DNA of 64,000 bases from Pedobacter sp. PACM 27299 (GTDB lineage: Bacteria > Bacteroidota > Bacteroidia > Sphingobacteriales > Sphingobacteriaceae): assembly GCF_001412655.1 (NCBI RefSeq), contig NZ_CP012996.1, forward strand, positions 3,410,001 through 3,474,000, written 5' to 3'. This document shows, piece after piece, positions 33,197 through 40,489 of the stretch. The notes under the pieces are model-generated. The model was given only the letters and a program-made list of their open reading frames with translations. It searched no databases and was not told the DNA's origin. The position numbers and the translations under genes are program-made. Each line of letters begins with the position of its first letter. Position 1 is the stretch's first letter.

Positions 33197-34438
33197 ATGA
33201 ATTTACTTCAAGATATTGCAGCGAATTATAAACGATCGTTTTCTGGACTGAGCAGGGAAACCTGGATTTTGAGCATAGTCATGCTCATTAATCGAAGTGG
33301 TTACATGGCAGTCCCATTTATGGGCTTATATGTCACTCAATCCTTACATCGCTCTGCTTCTGATGCAGGATTGATTATCACCTTGTTTGGTATAGGCTCA
33401 ATTATGGGTTCTGCTGCAGGAGGAAAACTGACTGATGTAATTGGTTTCAGACCTGTTCAGATTATTTCTGCCGTCATAGGTGGTGGCTTTTTCTTATTTT
33501 TTGCCAGCATAACGCATTTCGAAACGCTTTGTGTGCTGGCAATCGTGATTAGTTTCTTTGCAGAAGCCTTTCGTCCGGCAAATTTTGCAGCAATTGCAGC
33601 TTATGCGAAACCAGGATTGGAAACCAGATCCTACTCTTTGAATCGTTTGGCTACAAATATAGGATGGGCTTTTGGAGTAAGTATGGGGGGATTAATCGCG
33701 TCCTATAATTATAGGCTGTTATTTTATGTAGATGGTGCAGTTGGGATTTTTGCCGGGCTGAGCATTTTATGGTTTCTGCCGAAAATAAGAGGTTATAGAA
33801 AAGCAATTAAAGAAAAGGTAAAAGGGATTGTGGTACGAAAACCATGGGAAGATGTCTTATTCATCAAATTTCTGTTACTGAGTACAATTTTTATCATCTG
33901 CTTTTTCCTGATGTTTAGGGTGGTTCCTGTATTTTTCAAGGAATCCTGGAAAATTGATGAGTTTATGATCGGCTTGATTTTAGGCCTTAACGGGGTAATC
34001 ATTGCATTATTTGAAATGGTGATGATCCATAAGATTGAAGGAAAGAAATCATCGATATTTTTTATCACCTTAGGTGTATTGCTAATTGCAGGATCTTTTC
34101 TTGTACTGATGTCACCTATTGGCTCTCCGCTTGTACTTGGAGTTTTGTGTATTGTGCTTTTCACCTTCGGAGAAATGTTTGCTCTACCTTTTGTCAACAC
34201 TTTTGTAATGAGTAGAGCAAACGAATTTAACAGAGGACAATACGCTGCTGGATATATGCTGGTATGGTCAGTTGCCCAGGTTGTTGGGCCTTCAGCAGGA
34301 TTTTATATTGCCGAACACCATGGCTATAATACGTTATGGTTCATCCTGACCTGTCTTTTACTGGCTTGTGCCTACTTATACAAGTTTATGAAGTCAGTAG
34401 ATAGGCCTACTCCAGAAAATCCTGCCTTGCAGGGCTAA
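33197..34438 (+). CDS. MFS transporter
   Basis: The 413-residue protein has about twelve transmembrane helices and MFS family motifs: GSAAGGKLTDVIGFRP in the loop between helices 2 and 3 (the GGxxxDxxGRK-type motif A) and a large loop before helix 7 (RKPWEDVLF). It follows the methyltransferase by 4 nt and is probably cotranscribed. The layout is closer to efflux MFS members than to sugar importers, but the substrate cannot be told. Its last 32 nt overlap the end of the convergent cupin gene. Confidence 0.85.
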   Translation: MNLLQDIAANYKRSFSGLSRETWILSIVMLINRSGYMAVPFMGLYVTQSLHRSASDAGLIITLFGIGSIMGSAAGGKLTDVIGFRPVQIISAVIGGGFFLFFASITHFETLCVLAIVISFFAEAFRPANFAAIAAYAKPGLETRSYSLNRLATNIGWAFGVSMGGLIASYNYRLLFYVDGAVGIFAGLSILWFLPKIRGYRKAIKEKVKGIVVRKPWEDVLFIKFLLLSTIFIICFFLMFRVVPVFFKESWKIDEFMIGLILGLNGVIIALFEMVMIHKIEGKKSSIFFITLGVLLIAGSFLVLMSPIGSPLVLGVLCIVLFTFGEMFALPFVNTFVMSRANEFNRGQYAAGYMLVWSVAQVVGPSAGFYIAEHHGYNTLWFILTCLLLACAYLYKFMKSVDRPTPENPALQG

Positions 34439-34748
34439 AAGCATCAATCAATGTGCCTGCCGCGATACATACACAACCGTGGATTGTATGTGGCGGGACA
34501 TAAAATCCATCCCCTTTTCTGATAATTTTTTGTTCTATACCAATTGTCATTTCAAATATCCCACTGTCTACATAGGTTACCTGAGTATGGTGATGCTCAT
34601 GTAAAGTTCCAATGGCGCCAACTTCAAATTTAGCTTTCACCAACATAACTTGATCATTATAGCCAAATACTTGTCTTTGTATCCCATTGCCAAGATCTTC
34701 CCATGGCATTTCTGCTTCAATTTGAAAACATTCACTTTGCATATTCAT
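34407..34748 (-). CDS. Cupin-domain protein, KdgF-like
   Basis: A 113-residue single-domain cupin. Motif 1 is seen in LHEHHHTQVTYVDSG (His residues that ligate a metal) and motif 2 in GDGFYVPPHTIHGCVC. The closing AGTLIDAFSPARQDFLE is typical of the small KdgF-like cupins that linearise pyranose products of uronate-type breakdown. The first ATG (34748) gives MNMQSECF; the second is two codons on. No sugar-acid genes are close, so function remains inferred. The 3' ends of this gene and the MFS gene overlap by 32 nt on opposite strands. Confidence 0.78.
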   Translation of the reverse strand: MNMQSECFQIEAEMPWEDLGNGIQRQVFGYNDQVMLVKAKFEVGAIGTLHEHHHTQVTYVDSGIFEMTIGIEQKIIRKGDGFYVPPHTIHGCVCIAAGTLIDAFSPARQDFLE

Positions 34749-35275
34749 ATATTTAATTTCAAATATAAGAAAAGCAGTAAATTCATCGCTATTCTTAATA
34801 GGGACATAACTAAAAGTTAGAAAAGGTGTAAAGAGTAATCAATTAATAAGGGGAATGACCCCCTTATATAATAATTTGAGCGCGTATGGATATCTTTTTG
34901 TTAAAATCCCTGATGCACCTCCATGCACCAGGAATCTTGTTTTATAGGGGGGATGTTTAAAAGTAAACAAGGAAGTTTGATTCAAGAATTCTTTTACGCC
35001 AATATCCACCTCTACGTGGTGAATGCCCATAAATATGTGGTTAATGATTTTAATATTATTTAAAACGGCCTTAGCTTGTTCTAAAGCCTATCAAACCTTA
35101 AAAAACCTTTCCCTAGCGCTTAAAATATAGTTTTATCCCCAAATTTGATTTATCTTTACAGATCCTTAATAAATTTCATGAAACAAAAAAAAGTATTACG
35201 CCAAATGTAGTTTTTACGTTGCGAATTTTTTTTGATTAGATTTATTAAAAGTATTTGAATTATAGGAGGAGATCA
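34749..35275. other. Long spacer upstream of the LytTR regulator
   Basis: This 527-nt AT-rich stretch contains a short hairpin-capable repeat (ATAAGGGG / CCCCTTAT, 34846-34853 and 34860-34867), the 14-mer AAAAAAGTATTACG at 35187-35200 that recurs upstream of the lanthipeptide-like precursor, and a second TTACG at 35214-35218. A possible minus-strand frame of 63 codons (34839-35030) lacks a recognised family and is not called. Confidence 0.5.
35187..35200. promoter_or_regulatory. Candidate LytTR box, copy 1
   Basis: AAAAAAGTATTACG occurs here, 75 nt upstream of the regulator ATG, and again exactly at 36253-36266. The TTACG core repeats 18 bp downstream as TTTTACG, resembling the paired half-sites of LytTR-type regulators. 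Confidence 0.4.
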
Positions 35276-36022
35276 ATGGATAAGAAATTAAACTGTGTCA
35301 TTATTGACGATGAGAAGCATGCTGTAGAACTCCTGGCAGATTATATTGACGCTATGCCTAATCTACAGCTGCTAAAGTATTTTACTGATCCATTACAGGC
35401 ATTAATGGATATTTCCGAAGATGATCATATTGATATTGTCTTTATGGACATGGATATGCCGGGTATATCAGGGTTAGATCTTTCTGTAGCCATCAGAGCG
35501 AAAACAAAATACTTAATCATTACTACTGGCCATTCCAAATATGCTTATGAAGCTTTTGGCGTACAGGCGAATGAATATTTACTGAAGCCCATTTCCATGA
35601 GTAAATTTGCGCTCATGATAAAGAGACTGCTTAGTTTAGAAAATACAATTAAAAATACGACCGCTGTGGATGATTTTTTCTTTATCAAAACTGATCAGAT
35701 CCAGAAATACACAAAAATCAATATTAAGGACATCATTACGATCGAAGGCTTAAACAATTATGTAAAGATTCACACCTGCTCAGAAACACATGTGGCTTAT
35801 CTAACGATGAAGGAGTTGGAGTATAAACTTCAGGACATCAATAATTTTGTACGTGTACAGCGCTCTTTTATAGTAGCGGTAAATTACATCCAGAAAGTCG
35901 AAGGAAATACGATTGTATTGAGTAATAAGATGGAGATTCCTTTGGGAACAACTTATAAAAAGCAATTTCTGATGTTTCTGGCTGAAAAAACGATGAAATC
36001 TAACCGAAGCATCTCCGAATAG
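35276..36022 (+). CDS. LytTR-family response regulator
   Basis: From the ATG at 35276, preceded by a rare strong AGGAGG site, the protein has 248 residues. The receiver domain has IIDDEKH, the phosphoacceptor Asp in DIVFMDMDMPG (Asp58), Thr in ITTGHS and Lys in YLLKPISM. The C-terminal LytTR DNA-binding domain (about 130-240) has IQKYTKINIKDIITIEGLNNYVKIHT. It pairs with the LytS-type kinase encoded 269 nt downstream; between them, antisense, lies the precursor-like gene. LytTR regulators bind paired short repeats near promoters, often controlling peptide or bacteriocin genes. The last codons also form the terminator of the antisense precursor gene. Confidence 0.92.
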   Translation: MDKKLNCVIIDDEKHAVELLADYIDAMPNLQLLKYFTDPLQALMDISEDDHIDIVFMDMDMPGISGLDLSVAIRAKTKYLIITTGHSKYAYEAFGVQANEYLLKPISMSKFALMIKRLLSLENTIKNTTAVDDFFFIKTDQIQKYTKINIKDIITIEGLNNYVKIHTCSETHVAYLTMKELEYKLQDINNFVRVQRSFIVAVNYIQKVEGNTIVLSNKMEIPLGTTYKKQFLMFLAEKTMKSNRSISE

Positions 36023-36031
36023 ATTTCATCG
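35985..36031 (-). terminator. Minus-strand terminator of the precursor gene
   Basis: CGATGAAATCTA (35991-36002) and TAGATTTCATCG (36020-36031) form a perfect 12-bp stem. On the minus strand it is followed by TTTTTT (complement of 35985-35990). It starts 12 nt after the precursor stop and lies inside the end of the LytTR gene, so it serves the antisense gene. Confidence 0.75.
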
Positions 36032-36043
36032 CATAATGCAGAT

Positions 36044-36208
36044 TTATCCAGCAGGGAAGGTAATTACAGAACTGGTATGTGAAGTTGCAGTTCCATTCGT
36101 GGGATCAGTAGTGGTAACAGTAGGTGTGAATCCTGATCTGCTCTTTTTAGATTTGAATAAAAATAATGTACTTTTTTTAAGGTCGAAGGAGATGATTTCT
36201 TTTTTCAT
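36044..36208 (-). CDS. Putative RiPP precursor peptide, Ser/Thr-rich, Cys-free core (54 residues)
   Basis: ATG at 36208 opens 54 codons. The N-terminal part MKKEIISFDLKKSTLFLF resembles leaders of Bacteroidota class I lanthipeptides (hydrophobic stretch with a LKKxTL-like motif). Then comes a basic KSKKSRSG and a core-like C-terminus, PTVTTTDPTNGTATSHTSSV and ITFPAG, with about 15 Ser/Thr in 32 residues and no Cys anywhere. A promoter lies just upstream and a strong terminator just downstream, so it is a separate minus-strand unit in the gap between the LytTR regulator and its kinase. A LanB dehydratase is encoded about 1.2 kb away. It would probably be dehydrated without forming lanthionine rings; that is inference. 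An ATG 12 codons earlier (36244) is less likely. Confidence 0.7.
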   Translation of the reverse strand: MKKEIISFDLKKSTLFLFKSKKSRSGFTPTVTTTDPTNGTATSHTSSVITFPAG

Positions 36209-36225
36209 AATGTTTGTTTTTTTAT

Positions 36226-36256
36226 GAAAATTAGCCAGGATCAATACCCCTTAAAA
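36226..36256 (-). promoter_or_regulatory. Promoter of the precursor gene
   Basis: On the minus strand TTTT (36256-36253), a 19-nt spacer and TAATTTTC (36233-36226) fit the TTTG / TAnnTTTG consensus with one mismatch in each box. The leader to the ATG would be about 12 nt. The 14-mer CGTAATACTTTTTT (36266-36253) directly overlaps the -33 box, a class II activator position. Confidence 0.5.
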
Positions 36257-36266
36257 AAGTATTACG
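36253..36266. promoter_or_regulatory. Candidate LytTR box, copy 2
   Basis: This exact second copy of AAAAAAGTATTACG lies at the -33 region of the precursor promoter and 26 nt before the kinase ATG. It is in opposite orientation relative to the precursor promoter and same-strand relative to the kinase gene. Confidence 0.45.
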
Positions 36267-36291
36267 TTAACGCCTTTTTTTATTACACAAA

Positions 36292-37383
36292 ATGAAATTT
36301 ACCCCTACCGAGTTCATTAACTTTCTACGTAAATACAAGATCCATTTCATCGGCTGGTCTATCTTTATTTTCTACGAAGTAGTCATTATGGGCTTAATAA
36401 GAAAGCAATTCTCTCCATTAGGGAATTATGTTTTCTTTTACATCTTTAATATTCTGCTGTTTTATTTTCATGCACATTTCGTCATGCCTGCTGCAAAGAT
36501 GAAGACGGCACAAGCACTCTGGAGGCTACCTTCATTCATTGCAATAGAGGTGGTCGTCTATATCACCATTACACTTAACCTTTCAAATTTCCTTCATGAA
36601 AAAGGATATATCACTTTCCTGAGTCCACCTGCATTTAACATGGATGCCTATATTGGAATGTCTTATCGGGTTGTCTATTTCATCCTATTCTCTAGTGCTT
36701 ATTATTATATCCTACGTTATTTTGAAGAAAGAAAACTCGTAGAAGAAAAGGAAAAAGAGCGGTTACTGGTAATCATTGAGAACCAAAGGATTTATGCTGA
36801 TCTGATTAAATCCCAGCACGCACACCTGAAAGCACAAATCAATCCGCACTTTCTGTTTAATACATTAAATTTCATTTATACTAGCACGCGGAAAACTACA
36901 CCGGAGGCAGCCGAAGCCATATTAGCTTTATCAGAAATGATGAGGTACTCTATTGAAGAAGTCAGTCATTCCAATACTCCACTTGCTGGAGAATTAGAAC
37001 AAGTAGAAAATCTAATTAAATTACATAAGATTAAATCACATCAAAATCTCTATATCACCATGGAATATGATGAGGAGGTCACAGAACTGGAAATCGTCCC
37101 CTTACTGGTGATGACACTTGTAGAAAATATGTTTAAGCATGGTGATTTATTGCAGGAGGGCTATCCTGCTTCACTCATACTGAGGTACAATGCCAGCATG
37201 CTGCAAGTTGAAACGAATAACCTCATTAGCAAAAAGCAAACACAGCCAAGCCACCATATTGGGCTGGAAAATGTAAAAAAACGATTAAAGGCAACATATG
37301 GAGAGCGCGCTGCACTCCATACATTTCAACAAGATGACCAGTTTCGAGCATTGCTCGAAATCAATCTGATATCGGATAATTAA
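36292..37383 (+). CDS. LytS/YehU-type sensor histidine kinase
   Basis: The 363-residue kinase has about four membrane helices (residues about 16-140), a short coiled-coil linker rich in Glu and Lys, and the His_kinase-type core with the phosphorylated His in AQINPHFLFNTLN (His186), then VTLVENMFKHGD-like N-box (LVMTLVENMFKHGD) and GLENVKKRLKATYG. It is the partner of the LytTR regulator. No large periplasmic domain is present, so a small hydrophobic or peptide signal sensed within the membrane is plausible, which fits self-sensing of the nearby precursor product; this is inference. It converges on the LanB gene with a 7-nt gap. Confidence 0.9.
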   Translation: MKFTPTEFINFLRKYKIHFIGWSIFIFYEVVIMGLIRKQFSPLGNYVFFYIFNILLFYFHAHFVMPAAKMKTAQALWRLPSFIAIEVVVYITITLNLSNFLHEKGYITFLSPPAFNMDAYIGMSYRVVYFILFSSAYYYILRYFEERKLVEEKEKERLLVIIENQRIYADLIKSQHAHLKAQINPHFLFNTLNFIYTSTRKTTPEAAEAILALSEMMRYSIEEVSHSNTPLAGELEQVENLIKLHKIKSHQNLYITMEYDEEVTELEIVPLLVMTLVENMFKHGDLLQEGYPASLILRYNASMLQVETNNLISKKQTQPSHHIGLENVKKRLKATYGERAALHTFQQDDQFRALLEINLISDN

Positions 37384-37390
37384 CAATTTG

Positions 37391-40183
37391 CTACACGACT
37401 AAGAGCCTTTGCTGCTGCATCTGTAACTGCTTATATAGAAAACTATAAATGATCAGCTCATGCGCCCTTTGCTGCTCAGAAAAAAGTCGGTTGATGTGCA
37501 TGTGAAATAAGCTGCAGAACAATGCTGGTCTTTGGTCTGCGGCGGTAGCTCTTAGCGTATCCAGGAAGGACTGCTGGAGCCCCTGTAAATGTAAAGCCAG
37601 CGTAGAGTCATTGGATTGAACCAGCCTTTTAAAATTTGTCCATTCCCGATTTACCATTTTAAAATCATCACTCGTTAGCTCATGCTCCTTTTCGAATGCT
37701 CTTTGTATCCCCTTGATAAAGGTCAGTTCCGCTTTCTTTTCCAAAGACAATAGGCCAAGTGCAGCTTTCATTAGCTCAATACAATTCGCGTAAATAGAAA
37801 AACAATCCAGATGATGTGCAATAACCTCCAAGGCATACTCACTATCCTTCCTGAAATGGTGTTCTGTTAGTACCATTTGCTCTACACCATAACGTGCAAC
37901 CTCACGGTAGTAGGTTTTGATTTGTACATCTTTTATTAAGCCTTCCTGAAGATCTGCTGCAAGCAACTCCATTAGTCTCGTCATGTAAAAATAACCTGTC
38001 TGCCGATCCTTCAATTGGAACCTTAACCTTAAATGCGGACCAGGGTCATTATATCTGATAAAAAACCAGGTTTTAAAAGCAGCAGCATGCTCTGCAATAA
38101 ATGCTGAAATAAGCGTTGACAATAGGAATTCACATCTGTCGGGATGACAATAGATTTCATATGACAACCAATCTTTCCCAGGCATAATGATAGTTTCTAT
38201 CTGCGATTCATCAGCTGCAGCACTGGAAATATATCCTGGATACAGCTGTTCCTCATGACCGATAGCCAACAAAATTTGAGTGAAGTAAAACTTCTTATTG
38301 TCATCAATAAACAGCTGACTATCTGAAACAATATACTCATTTACAACGAAATCGTTATATTGGTTTGCATAGTGTTTCAAAAAAGAAAGGTCTTCAAACT
38401 TAGTCCTATCAAAACATAAAGTCTGGTCACCTTCCCCAACTGAGAAATAACGACTTACTCCAAGTTGATCCAATATTCCTAACATATCCTTCCCTTTCAT
38501 CTCTACTCCTTTGATCCTCCATTTTGCTGTTGATAAGACTAAGTTTTCATATTGAATTCTAGGGTAATAATCTAATCCTGGCAATAGCTCCTGAACATCA
38601 AATAACAATTGAGATTGGATACCCTGGTGCTGAAGATCACATAAAAATCGATATACAGAAAGGTCAGACCTAGTATAATTATAAGCAGAAGCCAAACGTG
38701 GAATAAGTCTTTTCCCATACTTTTTAGAGAAAAGTATCACTTCTTCCCTCTTGACAGTGACCAATATATCCTGCAAAGCAATCAACTGCTCACTACAGGA
38801 GTAGTTTAAAATGGGCAGCTCATGCTCGTAGATTTGCTTTCTACGATTGATATTATCCACTCTGCCCTCAGCCATATAGGCGATGTCAAAAAAAATGACC
38901 TCCGGATTAGCCTTTGATTCCGCGGCTGCAATCGATTTACAATGTTTGGTAAGTGTTTCGCTAGCCAATGTAAAACGGCCTGATAACGCATTTGCCGTAC
39001 ATCCTCCAACGTTATCCAGCACCAACAGATCGCCAGCAAATCTTGCCAGTATACTAAAACTATTCGCTGGTTTTAAATCCGCTTCATCCAGTTTTGTTTT
39101 CATGAGATCTTTCAACTGCAGCACTGCTGGTTTATCTTTAAGGATCGCATTCAATAGTTCATTGCTGAGGCCGATCCAGGGCAACATGACAGGACTTCTC
39201 TTTACAGAATGACTGCTGAGCTCCTGAGCTAAGTCATACTCCTTGGCAGCTGAGGTAAACTGACCATATCCAAGACCTAGTTCAGGATCAAGGATTTTCA
39301 GTAAAGGGACTTCCTGCCCCTCATACCGCCTCTGAAAGTCTTTTGAAAATCGTTTAAGCTCCTCATTTGCTTTTGATAGATTCAAAGAAAGTAAAGTATT
39401 TATGCAAGATGGTAGATGTTTTAAAACCGCTTTTGATAACTTACCGGAAATCATTTTCCTTTCCGCAATCAAGTAATCGCCTTGTTCATTCTGATGGGGT
39501 TCCTTTTGGATACGACCGAAATAATCTGGTCCAATAATGTTCGCATTTAACTCAGTAAATAACAGCTGGGCGTCAACCATTGCTTTCAGGATACTTAATA
39601 ATACTTCTTCAGTAACCGCTTTTGTGCCTGCAAATTCGAGTATACTGGAATAGCTTGCTATTTCAGCACATAGAACCAGCAGCTCCTGGATAAATCTACT
39701 ATATACAATCTCCGAGAGCTCGAACACTTGATCTCCCATTGAAATAAAACGAATATGATCAGCAACGGTATAATGGCTGGAATTTGAGAAATACAAGCGA
39801 TCTGAGGCATTCAATTCCTTTTCATGCAGTTCTACCGACTTATATCTTGACCAGTCCTTAAAACGATGTAAATGCTGCTCTTTAGAGAAAATTACGTTTT
39901 CTTTAACTTCTCCTAACCCAGCAACAGCAAAGCCTGCAAAATTACCGAATGGGGTACCCCTGTATTTAGAGCGATTATAATATTTCCAGATGGTATATTG
40001 TGTTCGGGTATCCAAATCTGTAATTCCAGCAGCAGGAACATGTTTTATTTTTTCATAAAAATCACTGGATGAGTGACAGATAGCACACTTTAAGTCCTCC
40101 CAAACTTCAACTAATTCATCGCACATTGAAAATGCCGGAATTCTCAATAGTACTACAGGGCTTATATTTAATATTACATCCAT
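37391..40183 (-). CDS. lanB: Class I lanthipeptide dehydratase (LanB), full length
   Basis: At 930 residues this is a single-chain LanB. The glutamylation domain has LLRIPAFS near residue 14, RSKYRGTPFGNFAGFA (about 71-86), ALSGRFTLA, RLIPRLASAYNYTR with RFLCDLQ, and PRIQYENLVLSTAKWR. The C-terminal elimination (SpaB_C or thiopeptide-type) domain begins near WLSYEIYCHPDR (about 672) and has WFFIRYNDPGPHLRLRF (about 703-719). LanB enzymes transfer Glu from glutamyl-tRNA to Ser/Thr and then eliminate it to dehydroamino acids. No LanC cyclase, transporter or protease gene is next to it. It converges on the LytS-type kinase gene and is preceded by a 306-nt spacer. Confidence 0.92.
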   Translation of the reverse strand: MDVILNISPVVLLRIPAFSMCDELVEVWEDLKCAICHSSSDFYEKIKHVPAAGITDLDTRTQYTIWKYYNRSKYRGTPFGNFAGFAVAGLGEVKENVIFSKEQHLHRFKDWSRYKSVELHEKELNASDRLYFSNSSHYTVADHIRFISMGDQVFELSEIVYSRFIQELLVLCAEIASYSSILEFAGTKAVTEEVLLSILKAMVDAQLLFTELNANIIGPDYFGRIQKEPHQNEQGDYLIAERKMISGKLSKAVLKHLPSCINTLLSLNLSKANEELKRFSKDFQRRYEGQEVPLLKILDPELGLGYGQFTSAAKEYDLAQELSSHSVKRSPVMLPWIGLSNELLNAILKDKPAVLQLKDLMKTKLDEADLKPANSFSILARFAGDLLVLDNVGGCTANALSGRFTLASETLTKHCKSIAAAESKANPEVIFFDIAYMAEGRVDNINRRKQIYEHELPILNYSCSEQLIALQDILVTVKREEVILFSKKYGKRLIPRLASAYNYTRSDLSVYRFLCDLQHQGIQSQLLFDVQELLPGLDYYPRIQYENLVLSTAKWRIKGVEMKGKDMLGILDQLGVSRYFSVGEGDQTLCFDRTKFEDLSFLKHYANQYNDFVVNEYIVSDSQLFIDDNKKFYFTQILLAIGHEEQLYPGYISSAAADESQIETIIMPGKDWLSYEIYCHPDRCEFLLSTLISAFIAEHAAAFKTWFFIRYNDPGPHLRLRFQLKDRQTGYFYMTRLMELLAADLQEGLIKDVQIKTYYREVARYGVEQMVLTEHHFRKDSEYALEVIAHHLDCFSIYANCIELMKAALGLLSLEKKAELTFIKGIQRAFEKEHELTSDDFKMVNREWTNFKRLVQSNDSTLALHLQGLQQSFLDTLRATAADQRPALFCSLFHMHINRLFSEQQRAHELIIYSFLYKQLQMQQQRLLVV

Positions 40184-40489
40184 AACTAATTATTTTATCT
40201 TTTCTTCTTACAATTTCCTTTACATTTAGAAATGAACCTAATCTATTACACCAAATAGCCCTGGGCTTACGCGAAAGATGTTTGCCGAAGACAAAAGTTA
40301 AGATTTAAACCTTTTATCTTATTCAAGGTCAATTAAGCGTTAATCAGCTTATCTAACTTGTAGCCAGACCGTCATTTTAAAACAAAAAAAATAAAAAATA
40401 TTCACCTAAACATCAATTAATCAATACATTTGTAAAAAAAAATAAGCGCTTATAGAGAGAACCAGACTTAAATAATAAAACCCAATTCT
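40184..40489. other. Divergent spacer between lanB and L,D-transpeptidase genes
   Basis: This 306-nt AT-rich spacer carries the divergent promoters. On the plus strand the -7 box TACATTTG (40425-40432) and a 12-bp palindrome ATAAGCGCTTAT (40442-40453) are visible. Toward lanB I see no convincing consensus promoter, only a near match TAACTTTTG. TTACGC at 40268 faintly resembles the LytTR box core. Confidence 0.5.
40425..40432 (+). promoter_or_regulatory. -7 box of the L,D-transpeptidase gene
   Basis: TACATTTG matches the TAnnTTTG consensus in full. The -33 region is weak. A perfect 12-bp palindrome ATAAGCGCTTAT begins 10 nt downstream, around the expected transcription start, and could be an operator. 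Confidence 0.45.

Follow-up and report, generated by a model that had tools for sequence, protein, structure and literature searches.

A conserved LanB dehydratase cassette of Pedobacter with a Cys-free precursor and its own two-component system, and its possible role in peptide signalling

The 64,000-nucleotide stretch of Pedobacter sp. PACM 27299 analysed here (the window; contig NZ_CP012996.1, positions 3,410,001 to 3,474,000) carries a LanB dehydratase gene linked in one cassette, as in two-component peptide pheromone cassettes, with genes for a small precursor, a response regulator (RR) and a histidine kinase (HK). The precursor gene sits between the RR and HK genes, on the strand opposite to both. 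An earlier interpretation of the same DNA (the sequence-only reading) had described a full-length LanB, a 54-codon Cys-free frame with about 15 Ser/Thr and a lone His, and two-component genes flanking it. Its coordinates and composition are right, and Pfam confirms both the RR and the HK as well as a LanB with both Lant_dehydr domains. The four genes are as follows.

35255-36022, plus strand: RR with receiver and LytTR domains (Pfam)
36044-36208, minus strand: Cys-free precursor of 54 aa, supported as an open reading frame (ORF), by a family hidden Markov model (HMM) and by codon comparison
36292-37383, plus strand: membrane HK (PF06580) with an N-terminal sensor at about residues 10-154
37391-40183, minus strand: LanB dehydratase of 930 aa with glutamylation and elimination domains (Pfam, NisB alignment, fold match)

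In the RR gene, an in-frame ATG is present at 35276, with GGAGG 5' of it. In the HK, the His of the NPHxxFN motif and the LVEN-type N-box are conserved.

The LanB matches Lant_dehydr_N and Lant_dehydr_C with E-values of 7.1e-71 and 9.2e-51. In an alignment where residue numbers were placed by hand (R14 by position), Y68, R71, R75, T77 and R403 correspond to Y80, R83, R87, T89 and R464 of NisB, and R719, R721, E761, R764 and H894 to R784, R786, E823, R826 and H961, R464, R786, E823 and R826 being residues with roles in NisB. These residues are invariant in the 81 loci compared, including the whole elimination-site set, apart from T77, which is found in 80 of them. Both predicted catalytic sites are thus intact in all 81 loci. 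Dehydration by NisB is abolished in Y80F and H961A and reduced by changes at R14, R83 and R87, with milder effects of T89A and R784A (PMC4341554). An AlphaFold model of the LanB (mean predicted local distance difference test score 83.6, predicted template modelling score 0.70) has MadB, NisB and MibB as best fold matches, with template modelling scores of 0.54-0.58 over the whole chain and a large root-mean-square deviation. In a tree of 64 chosen rows, built by a quick method and read as unrooted, 33 LanBs of the window kind, with precursors that are Cys-free or end in Cys, lie on one side of a branch with a Shimodaira-Hasegawa-like approximate likelihood ratio (SH-aLRT) support of 100. All seven LanC-linked LanBs fall in another branch (13 rows, SH-aLRT 100), together with five unassigned rows and one two-component-linked LanB (L253).

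The comparison set comprises 79 fetched loci with LanBs like that of the window plus our own two, a fragment at a contig end (G021) being left out. An HK gene is next to LanB in all 81 loci and an RR gene in 80, the exception lying at a contig end; the commonest neighbour cluster after these two occurs in 41. The order RR-precursor-HK is found in 77 loci, and the other four (L087, L115, L116, L124) have overlapping RR and HK genes. Within the genus, at least 79 of the 99 sampled genomes contain a LanB match and at least 75 a LanB of this kind. A scan of named genomes, considered for the best 80 of 129 loci, found an HK in 79, an RR in 79 and a precursor at E<1e-3 in 73. Among these best 80, the closest named LanB is that of Pedobacter polysacchareus (92% identical), and the hosts are mostly Pedobacter, with Mucilaginibacter, Hufsiella, Olivibacter, Taibaiella, one Sphingobacterium metagenome-assembled genome (MAG) and Bacteroidetes MAGs. 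Some match was found in 44 of 121 genomes sampled across the family, where all 19 fetched full-length loci have an HK within about 1.5 kb, and in 30 of 296 genomes sampled across the phylum, where end-to-end matches occur in three genomes, all belonging to the window's genus.

The precursor gene belongs to a family of its own. The window peptide has no Cys, one His and 15 Ser/Thr in its last 34 residues, 13 of them from residue 27 onward, where conservation places the probable border between a leader (about 1-26) and a core. No Pfam or NCBIfam model matched it; 37 family members likewise hit no NCBIfam family, and in Pfam only stray families with one member each. Among 11,348 small ORFs, the family HMM gave 136 opposite-strand matches within RR-HK gaps at E<1e-3. 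Since the HMM was trained on gap ORFs, these are expected, and the real test is that only two strong matches (L110, L114) fall elsewhere; both belong to the family, and their position is due to the end of a contig in one case and to a wrongly placed HK start in the other. With these two and 73 called in the gap, a precursor at E<1e-3 is present in 75 of the 77 loci with RR-precursor-HK order, and at L101 and L123, the two loci left, a Cys-free ORF occupies that position. Codon comparison of the window gene with its counterpart in P. polysacchareus (L125) gives 53 of 55 codons identical, the two changes being non-synonymous and none synonymous, and with L046 47 of 55 identical, with four synonymous and four non-synonymous changed codons; the pair L049-L051 has seven synonymous and three non-synonymous changes and L047-L048 eight and eleven (L050-L053 was set aside as out of register through an indel). 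Family HMM, position and codon comparison together rule out a chance ORF. A protein search with the family returned, among the 120 of 170 matches listed, only hypothetical or uncharacterized proteins, one odd automatic label excepted.

Altogether the family counts 140 copies in 77 loci, of which 131 are unique, with two to eight tandem copies in 20 loci. Cys is absent from 132 of the 140 copies and present in eight; the unique sequences hold seven Cys in all versus 57 expected from long ORFs. A single Cys-free peptide is unremarkable, as the chance for one peptide of such size is about 65% by composition, but 124 Cys-free sequences out of 131 are not. Ser and Thr make up 34% of the core versus 17% of the leader. 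The leader, which had been called lanthipeptide-type, does not belong to the known class I types, as neither the FxLD box nor the LxLxKx5L motif is found in any of the 131 unique members. Its common element is instead a strand-like stretch of the form TxFVYK (123 of 131 fit a loose pattern), and GG is present in 12. Ring closure through the lone His, also suggested earlier, finds no general support, since only 55 of the 131 have a His within the core.

The absence of a LanC cyclase noted in the immediate surroundings extends to the whole genome: a Pfam search for LANC_like proteins finds none in the 6.15-Mb single contig, which rules out a hidden LanC, whereas the same search matches 34 of the 99 genomes sampled from the genus. 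Among the LanB matches listed, 75 genomes carry a LanB of this set, and 42 of these lack LanC; no LanC match occurs in Hufsiella, Olivibacter or the MAG of L186. These counts rest on Pfam searches, a three-sequence LanC profile having been discarded because it missed six of ten known LanC loci. Nor does the window genome have any YcaO match, and its two C39-peptidase proteins are both encoded far from the cassette. By gene content, a cyclase-less LanB system whose precursor lacks Cys is, as proposed, real, and it is conserved and common in the genus.

The sequence-only reading overlooked that the two-component genes belong to the system and that the kinase sensor varies with the peptide, which now looks central. 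Pairwise distances were compared for the core (from residue 27), the HK sensor (residues 10-154), the HK kinase domain, the RR and LanB. In a first linear test over 77 of the 81 loci, the core-sensor correlation was 0.49 and the core-kinase correlation -0.10. With a cubic control for LanB and kinase distances (76 of the 81 loci), the partial correlation between core and sensor was 0.482 overall and 0.634 and 0.445 in two non-overlapping sets of 38 loci, the p-value of 0.002 for each being the floor of 499 permutations. Control correlations ranged from -0.165 to 0.119 for parts of LanB, from 0.070 to 0.175 for the RR and from 0.005 to 0.225 for the kinase. In the L055 clade, distances are 0.07 for the RR and 0.15 for the kinase versus 0.53 for the sensor and 0.59 for the core. 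Along the HK, the signal spans residues 1 to about 150, with none in the transmitter. Its most variable stretch, residues 91-120, may be a loop in the periplasm joining hydrophobic stretches three and four, in a topology that is uncertain because a simple hydropathy cut-off over 77 HKs gives varying segment numbers (three in 50, four in 10). Judged from these distances, core and membrane-sensor sequences co-diversify, an observation made here for this system, and the pattern is that of a pheromone and its receptor, as in ComQXP and agr. Tandem copies add to it: within one locus the core distance is 0.15 versus 0.20 for the leader, whereas between loci of the L055 clade the core distance is 0.62 versus 0.31, the core being farther in 656 of 703 pairs. 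Together, the tandem and between-locus patterns are the trace expected of a signal tied to one receptor.

Short repeats in the promoters of the cassette could link its regulator to its own genes.

36262-36287, minus strand: direct repeat YGTAA-N16-YGTAA in the shared precursor/HK promoter, LytTR-operator-like
40246-40271, minus strand: direct repeat YGTAA-N16-YGTAA in the LanB promoter (pattern match)
35189-35200, plus strand: AAAAGTATTACG upstream of RR, also in the precursor/HK promoter at 36255-36266

The direct repeat has these two matches in 64 kb, with 0.52 expected and two reached in 9 of 100 shuffles, and a second cassette of the genome has one match as well, in its precursor/HK promoter. 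AAAAGTATTACG has two exact copies in the window; with up to one mismatch allowed, two copies arise in 8 of 100 shuffles. Of 22 lags compared in the LanB promoters of ten close relatives, that of 21 bp is the strongest; in the RR promoter it is not the leading one. The repeats are at most suggestive of LytTR operators. Genome-wide, the pattern matches 14 times versus 9 for a control pattern, so that the idea of a wider regulon was dropped and none is claimed outside the cassettes.

The interpretation consequently shifts, with reasonable but far from complete confidence, from an odd relative of lanthipeptides to a signalling cassette. What the sequences show is the gene conservation, the intact LanB sites, the missing LanC, the constant HK and RR linkage and the core-sensor co-diversification; from these we infer dehydration, the absence of other crosslinks, export, kinase binding, signalling and feedback. 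LanB would glutamylate Ser and Thr of the core using Glu-tRNA and then eliminate glutamate to form dehydroalanine and dehydrobutyrine. With no Cys and no LanC, the proposed product would be a dehydrated peptide without lanthionine. After removal of the leader and export, the peptide would act on the N-terminal membrane sensor of the adjacent HK, and the LytTR regulator would feed back on the precursor/HK and LanB promoters. That the cassette is self-contained in this manner, with a LanB-dehydrated peptide sensed by the kinase encoded beside it, is the explanation we find fairly probable, the peptide probably being a cell-cell chemical signal rather than a classical lantibiotic. The broader notion of a new class of bacterial pheromones, made of LanB-dehydrated, lanthionine-free peptides for which LanC is unneeded, with pherotypes paired with their own kinases in a quorum-sensing network across the Sphingobacteriaceae, is put forward with a little less assurance, as only slightly favoured.

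Several observations weigh against signalling by a lanthionine-free peptide. A LanC occurs in 33 of the 75 genomes that have a LanB of this kind, and LanC matches are also found in P. polysacchareus, the closest named relative; in one genome (G009) the distance between a LanC and the LanB is about 6 kb, and that LanC adjoins a different LanB. No exporter or protease is conserved among the neighbours in the 81 loci. Distance-matrix tests can mislead for related sequences, and some controls are not null: the fastest LanB columns reach 0.119 (p=0.002), the kinase 0.225 (p=0.014) in one clade and, in the other half of the loci, the RR 0.175 (p=0.004). On the DNA the leader separates the core from the HK start, and physical linkage as the cause of the correlation is weakened because the leader is uncorrelated with the sensor in the L055 clade (-0.03), though their correlation is 0.30 in the other half, where the core-sensor value also drops to 0.30 once the leader is controlled. 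The core is closer than the leader in only 14 of the 20 multi-copy loci, with one tie and five reversed, one of the latter (L072) holding masked bases. Of 12 promoter sets of relatives, only 5 show the 21-bp lag as the strongest, the RR promoters of group D among them.

The related loci also limit the Cys-free rule. Some loci have an operon of overlapping RR and HK genes, with the likely precursor encoded divergently from HK. In all ten loci of this kind that were read (L087, L115, L116, L167, L168, L172, L187, L194, L196, L197), a Cys falls among the last five residues of a candidate precursor. An HMM E<1e-3 is reached by three of these candidates (L167, L187, L196); the other seven, like most candidates of a group with LanBs of about 1000 aa described below, were chosen for their position and composition. 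At L116 a second candidate lacks the near-terminal Cys, and at L162, where no HK was found, the candidate also ends in Cys. In Pfam searches, five of the ten genomes (L167, L168, L172, L194, L115) have a LanC at some position and the other five have none. A single C-terminal thioether ring would be possible in these relatives. With the eight Cys-bearing copies among the 140, they indicate that lack of Cys is not obligatory across the system. The sequence-only reading had named a Cys-bearing precursor next to LanB elsewhere as evidence against its proposal; such precursors do exist in part of the related loci, while the Cys-free rule stands for the window subtype.

Because LanB products are mostly known as antibiotics and NisK-NisR detect nisin (PMC8895600), the peptide might instead be a dehydrated antimicrobial whose main job is killing, its own HK-RR sensing it to induce production as nisin does via NisRK. 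Sensor co-diversification would fit this as well; yet no immunity gene is found among the conserved neighbours of the 81 loci, which also lack a conserved exporter and protease, and tandem copies mostly retain one core (14 of 20 loci), so that we consider an antimicrobial role unlikely. The eight Cys-bearing family copies, the near-terminal Cys of the operon loci and the LanC found in part of the genomes leave some room for a crosslink formed after dehydration, by another nucleophile (Lys, His or the N terminus), by an enzyme encoded elsewhere or as a thioether ring in the Cys-bearing relatives. In the window genome, which has neither LanC nor YcaO, and in a family where Cys is missing from 124 of 131 unique precursors and core His present in fewer than half, such closure seems improbable.

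It is also conceivable that LanB is not a dehydratase here, since its relatives include the separate glutamylation enzyme TbtB and the peptide aminoacyl-tRNA ligases (PEARLs; PMC12945691), so that the outcome would be stable glutamylation or PEARL-kind amino-acid addition. PEARLs are described as small LanB-like proteins (PMC12945691), whereas the window enzyme has 930 aa, a complete C-terminal domain and elimination-site residues invariant in 81 of 81 loci, which does not fit a PEARL and makes this alternative highly improbable.

Several known systems come close to the cassette. Like ComQXPA and agr, it unites a modifying enzyme, a peptide, a membrane kinase and a regulator. The agr system has these features within its cassette, and AgrA is a LytTR regulator. 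Modification in ComQXPA and agr is an isoprenylation or a thiolactone, in place of which LanB is found here, and both systems are known from Gram-positive bacteria. The nisin system includes a dedicated exporter and immunity, neither of which was found in the window system. Of the features of class I lanthipeptides, a full-length LanB is present, but LanC, a core Cys and an FxLD or LxLxKx5L leader, of which nisin needs LanC and Cys and has an FxLD-type leader, are not found in the window system. The likeness to nisin lies in the LanB dehydratase and in a two-component pair that in nisin detects the product of LanB and regulates its genes (PMC8895600) and may do so here, and that to comQXP in a peptide and a sensor that are highly polymorphic (PMC4408185). 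LanB-type dehydration without lanthionine also occurs in goadsporin (GodF, structure 9jhq) and dehydrazoles (PMC5303826, PMC10676384), but those products contain azoles and the window genome is devoid of YcaO. The Bacteroidetes class I lanthipeptides of Pedobacter, and pinensin, share the phylum and the LanB family; they were mined via LanC-like proteins (PMC7268733) and have Cys and LxLxKx5L leaders, whereas the window-type precursors lack this motif and their LanBs form a separate branch.

Such mining would miss these loci: Walker 2020 took LanC-like proteins as its starting point and left out LanM precursors lacking Cys (PMC7268733), and Marsh 2010 looked first for lanC homologues and afterwards used LanABC for screening (PMC3091789). 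A group found in at least 75 of 99 sampled genomes of a genus thereby escapes LanC-led searches. The accessible text of two Pedobacter surveys (PMC12181424, PMC10609062) describes no such locus, and a literature search, with most subscription papers and bioRxiv outside its scope, found no LanC-free, Cys-free LanB and two-component cassette. If the proposal is true, LanB serves signalling, dehydroamino acids have a role outside thioether rings, and the Bacteroidota gain a directly testable peptide signalling system with many natural signal-receptor pairs for specificity studies.

The window genome has two LanB genes, the other belonging to the second cassette (L005), which likewise contains an HK, an opposite-strand 54-aa Cys-free ORF, an RR and LanB. 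The two cassette HKs are mutual best matches within the genome (244 bits, the next HK scoring 90 bits). The reading frame of the second HK (L005:7527-8636) is interrupted by an in-frame stop, so that this cassette may be deaf to its own peptide; in its relatives L105 and L109, the HK is a single intact frame.

A further group with LanBs of about 1000 aa (L235-L242, L244-L248) has an HK-RR operon and no adjacent LanC. A Ser/Thr-rich ORF is divergent from HK in 13 of 13 loci, Cys-free in 11, and many of these ORFs end in a STHIF-like sequence. As far as gene arrangement tells, the linkage of LanB to two-component genes with no LanC alongside seems to be a wider theme. Two further loci hold large LanBs: L249 (7491-12424) encodes a 1053-aa LanB with HK and RR and no clear precursor, and L243 a 1034-aa LanB with no HK or RR match. 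RND-type (resistance-nodulation-division) pumps, guessed from gene sizes in the ~1000-aa loci, were dropped after Pfam, which at L240 identified a TonB-dependent/SusC-type receptor, SusD and MauE; L247 adjoins a SUF operon.

Next to the RR in the window, a transporter of the major facilitator superfamily (33197-34438) and a cupin protein (34407-34748) recur in only 9 and 10 of the 81 loci and look like lineage neighbours. SusD-like genes lie nearby in 10 of 11 Cys-type and 9 of 14 ~1000-aa-type loci and in only 5 of 76 window-type loci, and MauE-like genes in 10 of 14 ~1000-aa-type, none of 11 Cys-type and 4 of 76 window-type loci; the region L005:13504-17001 of the second cassette is part of this observation. 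Such genes could possibly represent the output of the circuit or serve peptide uptake.

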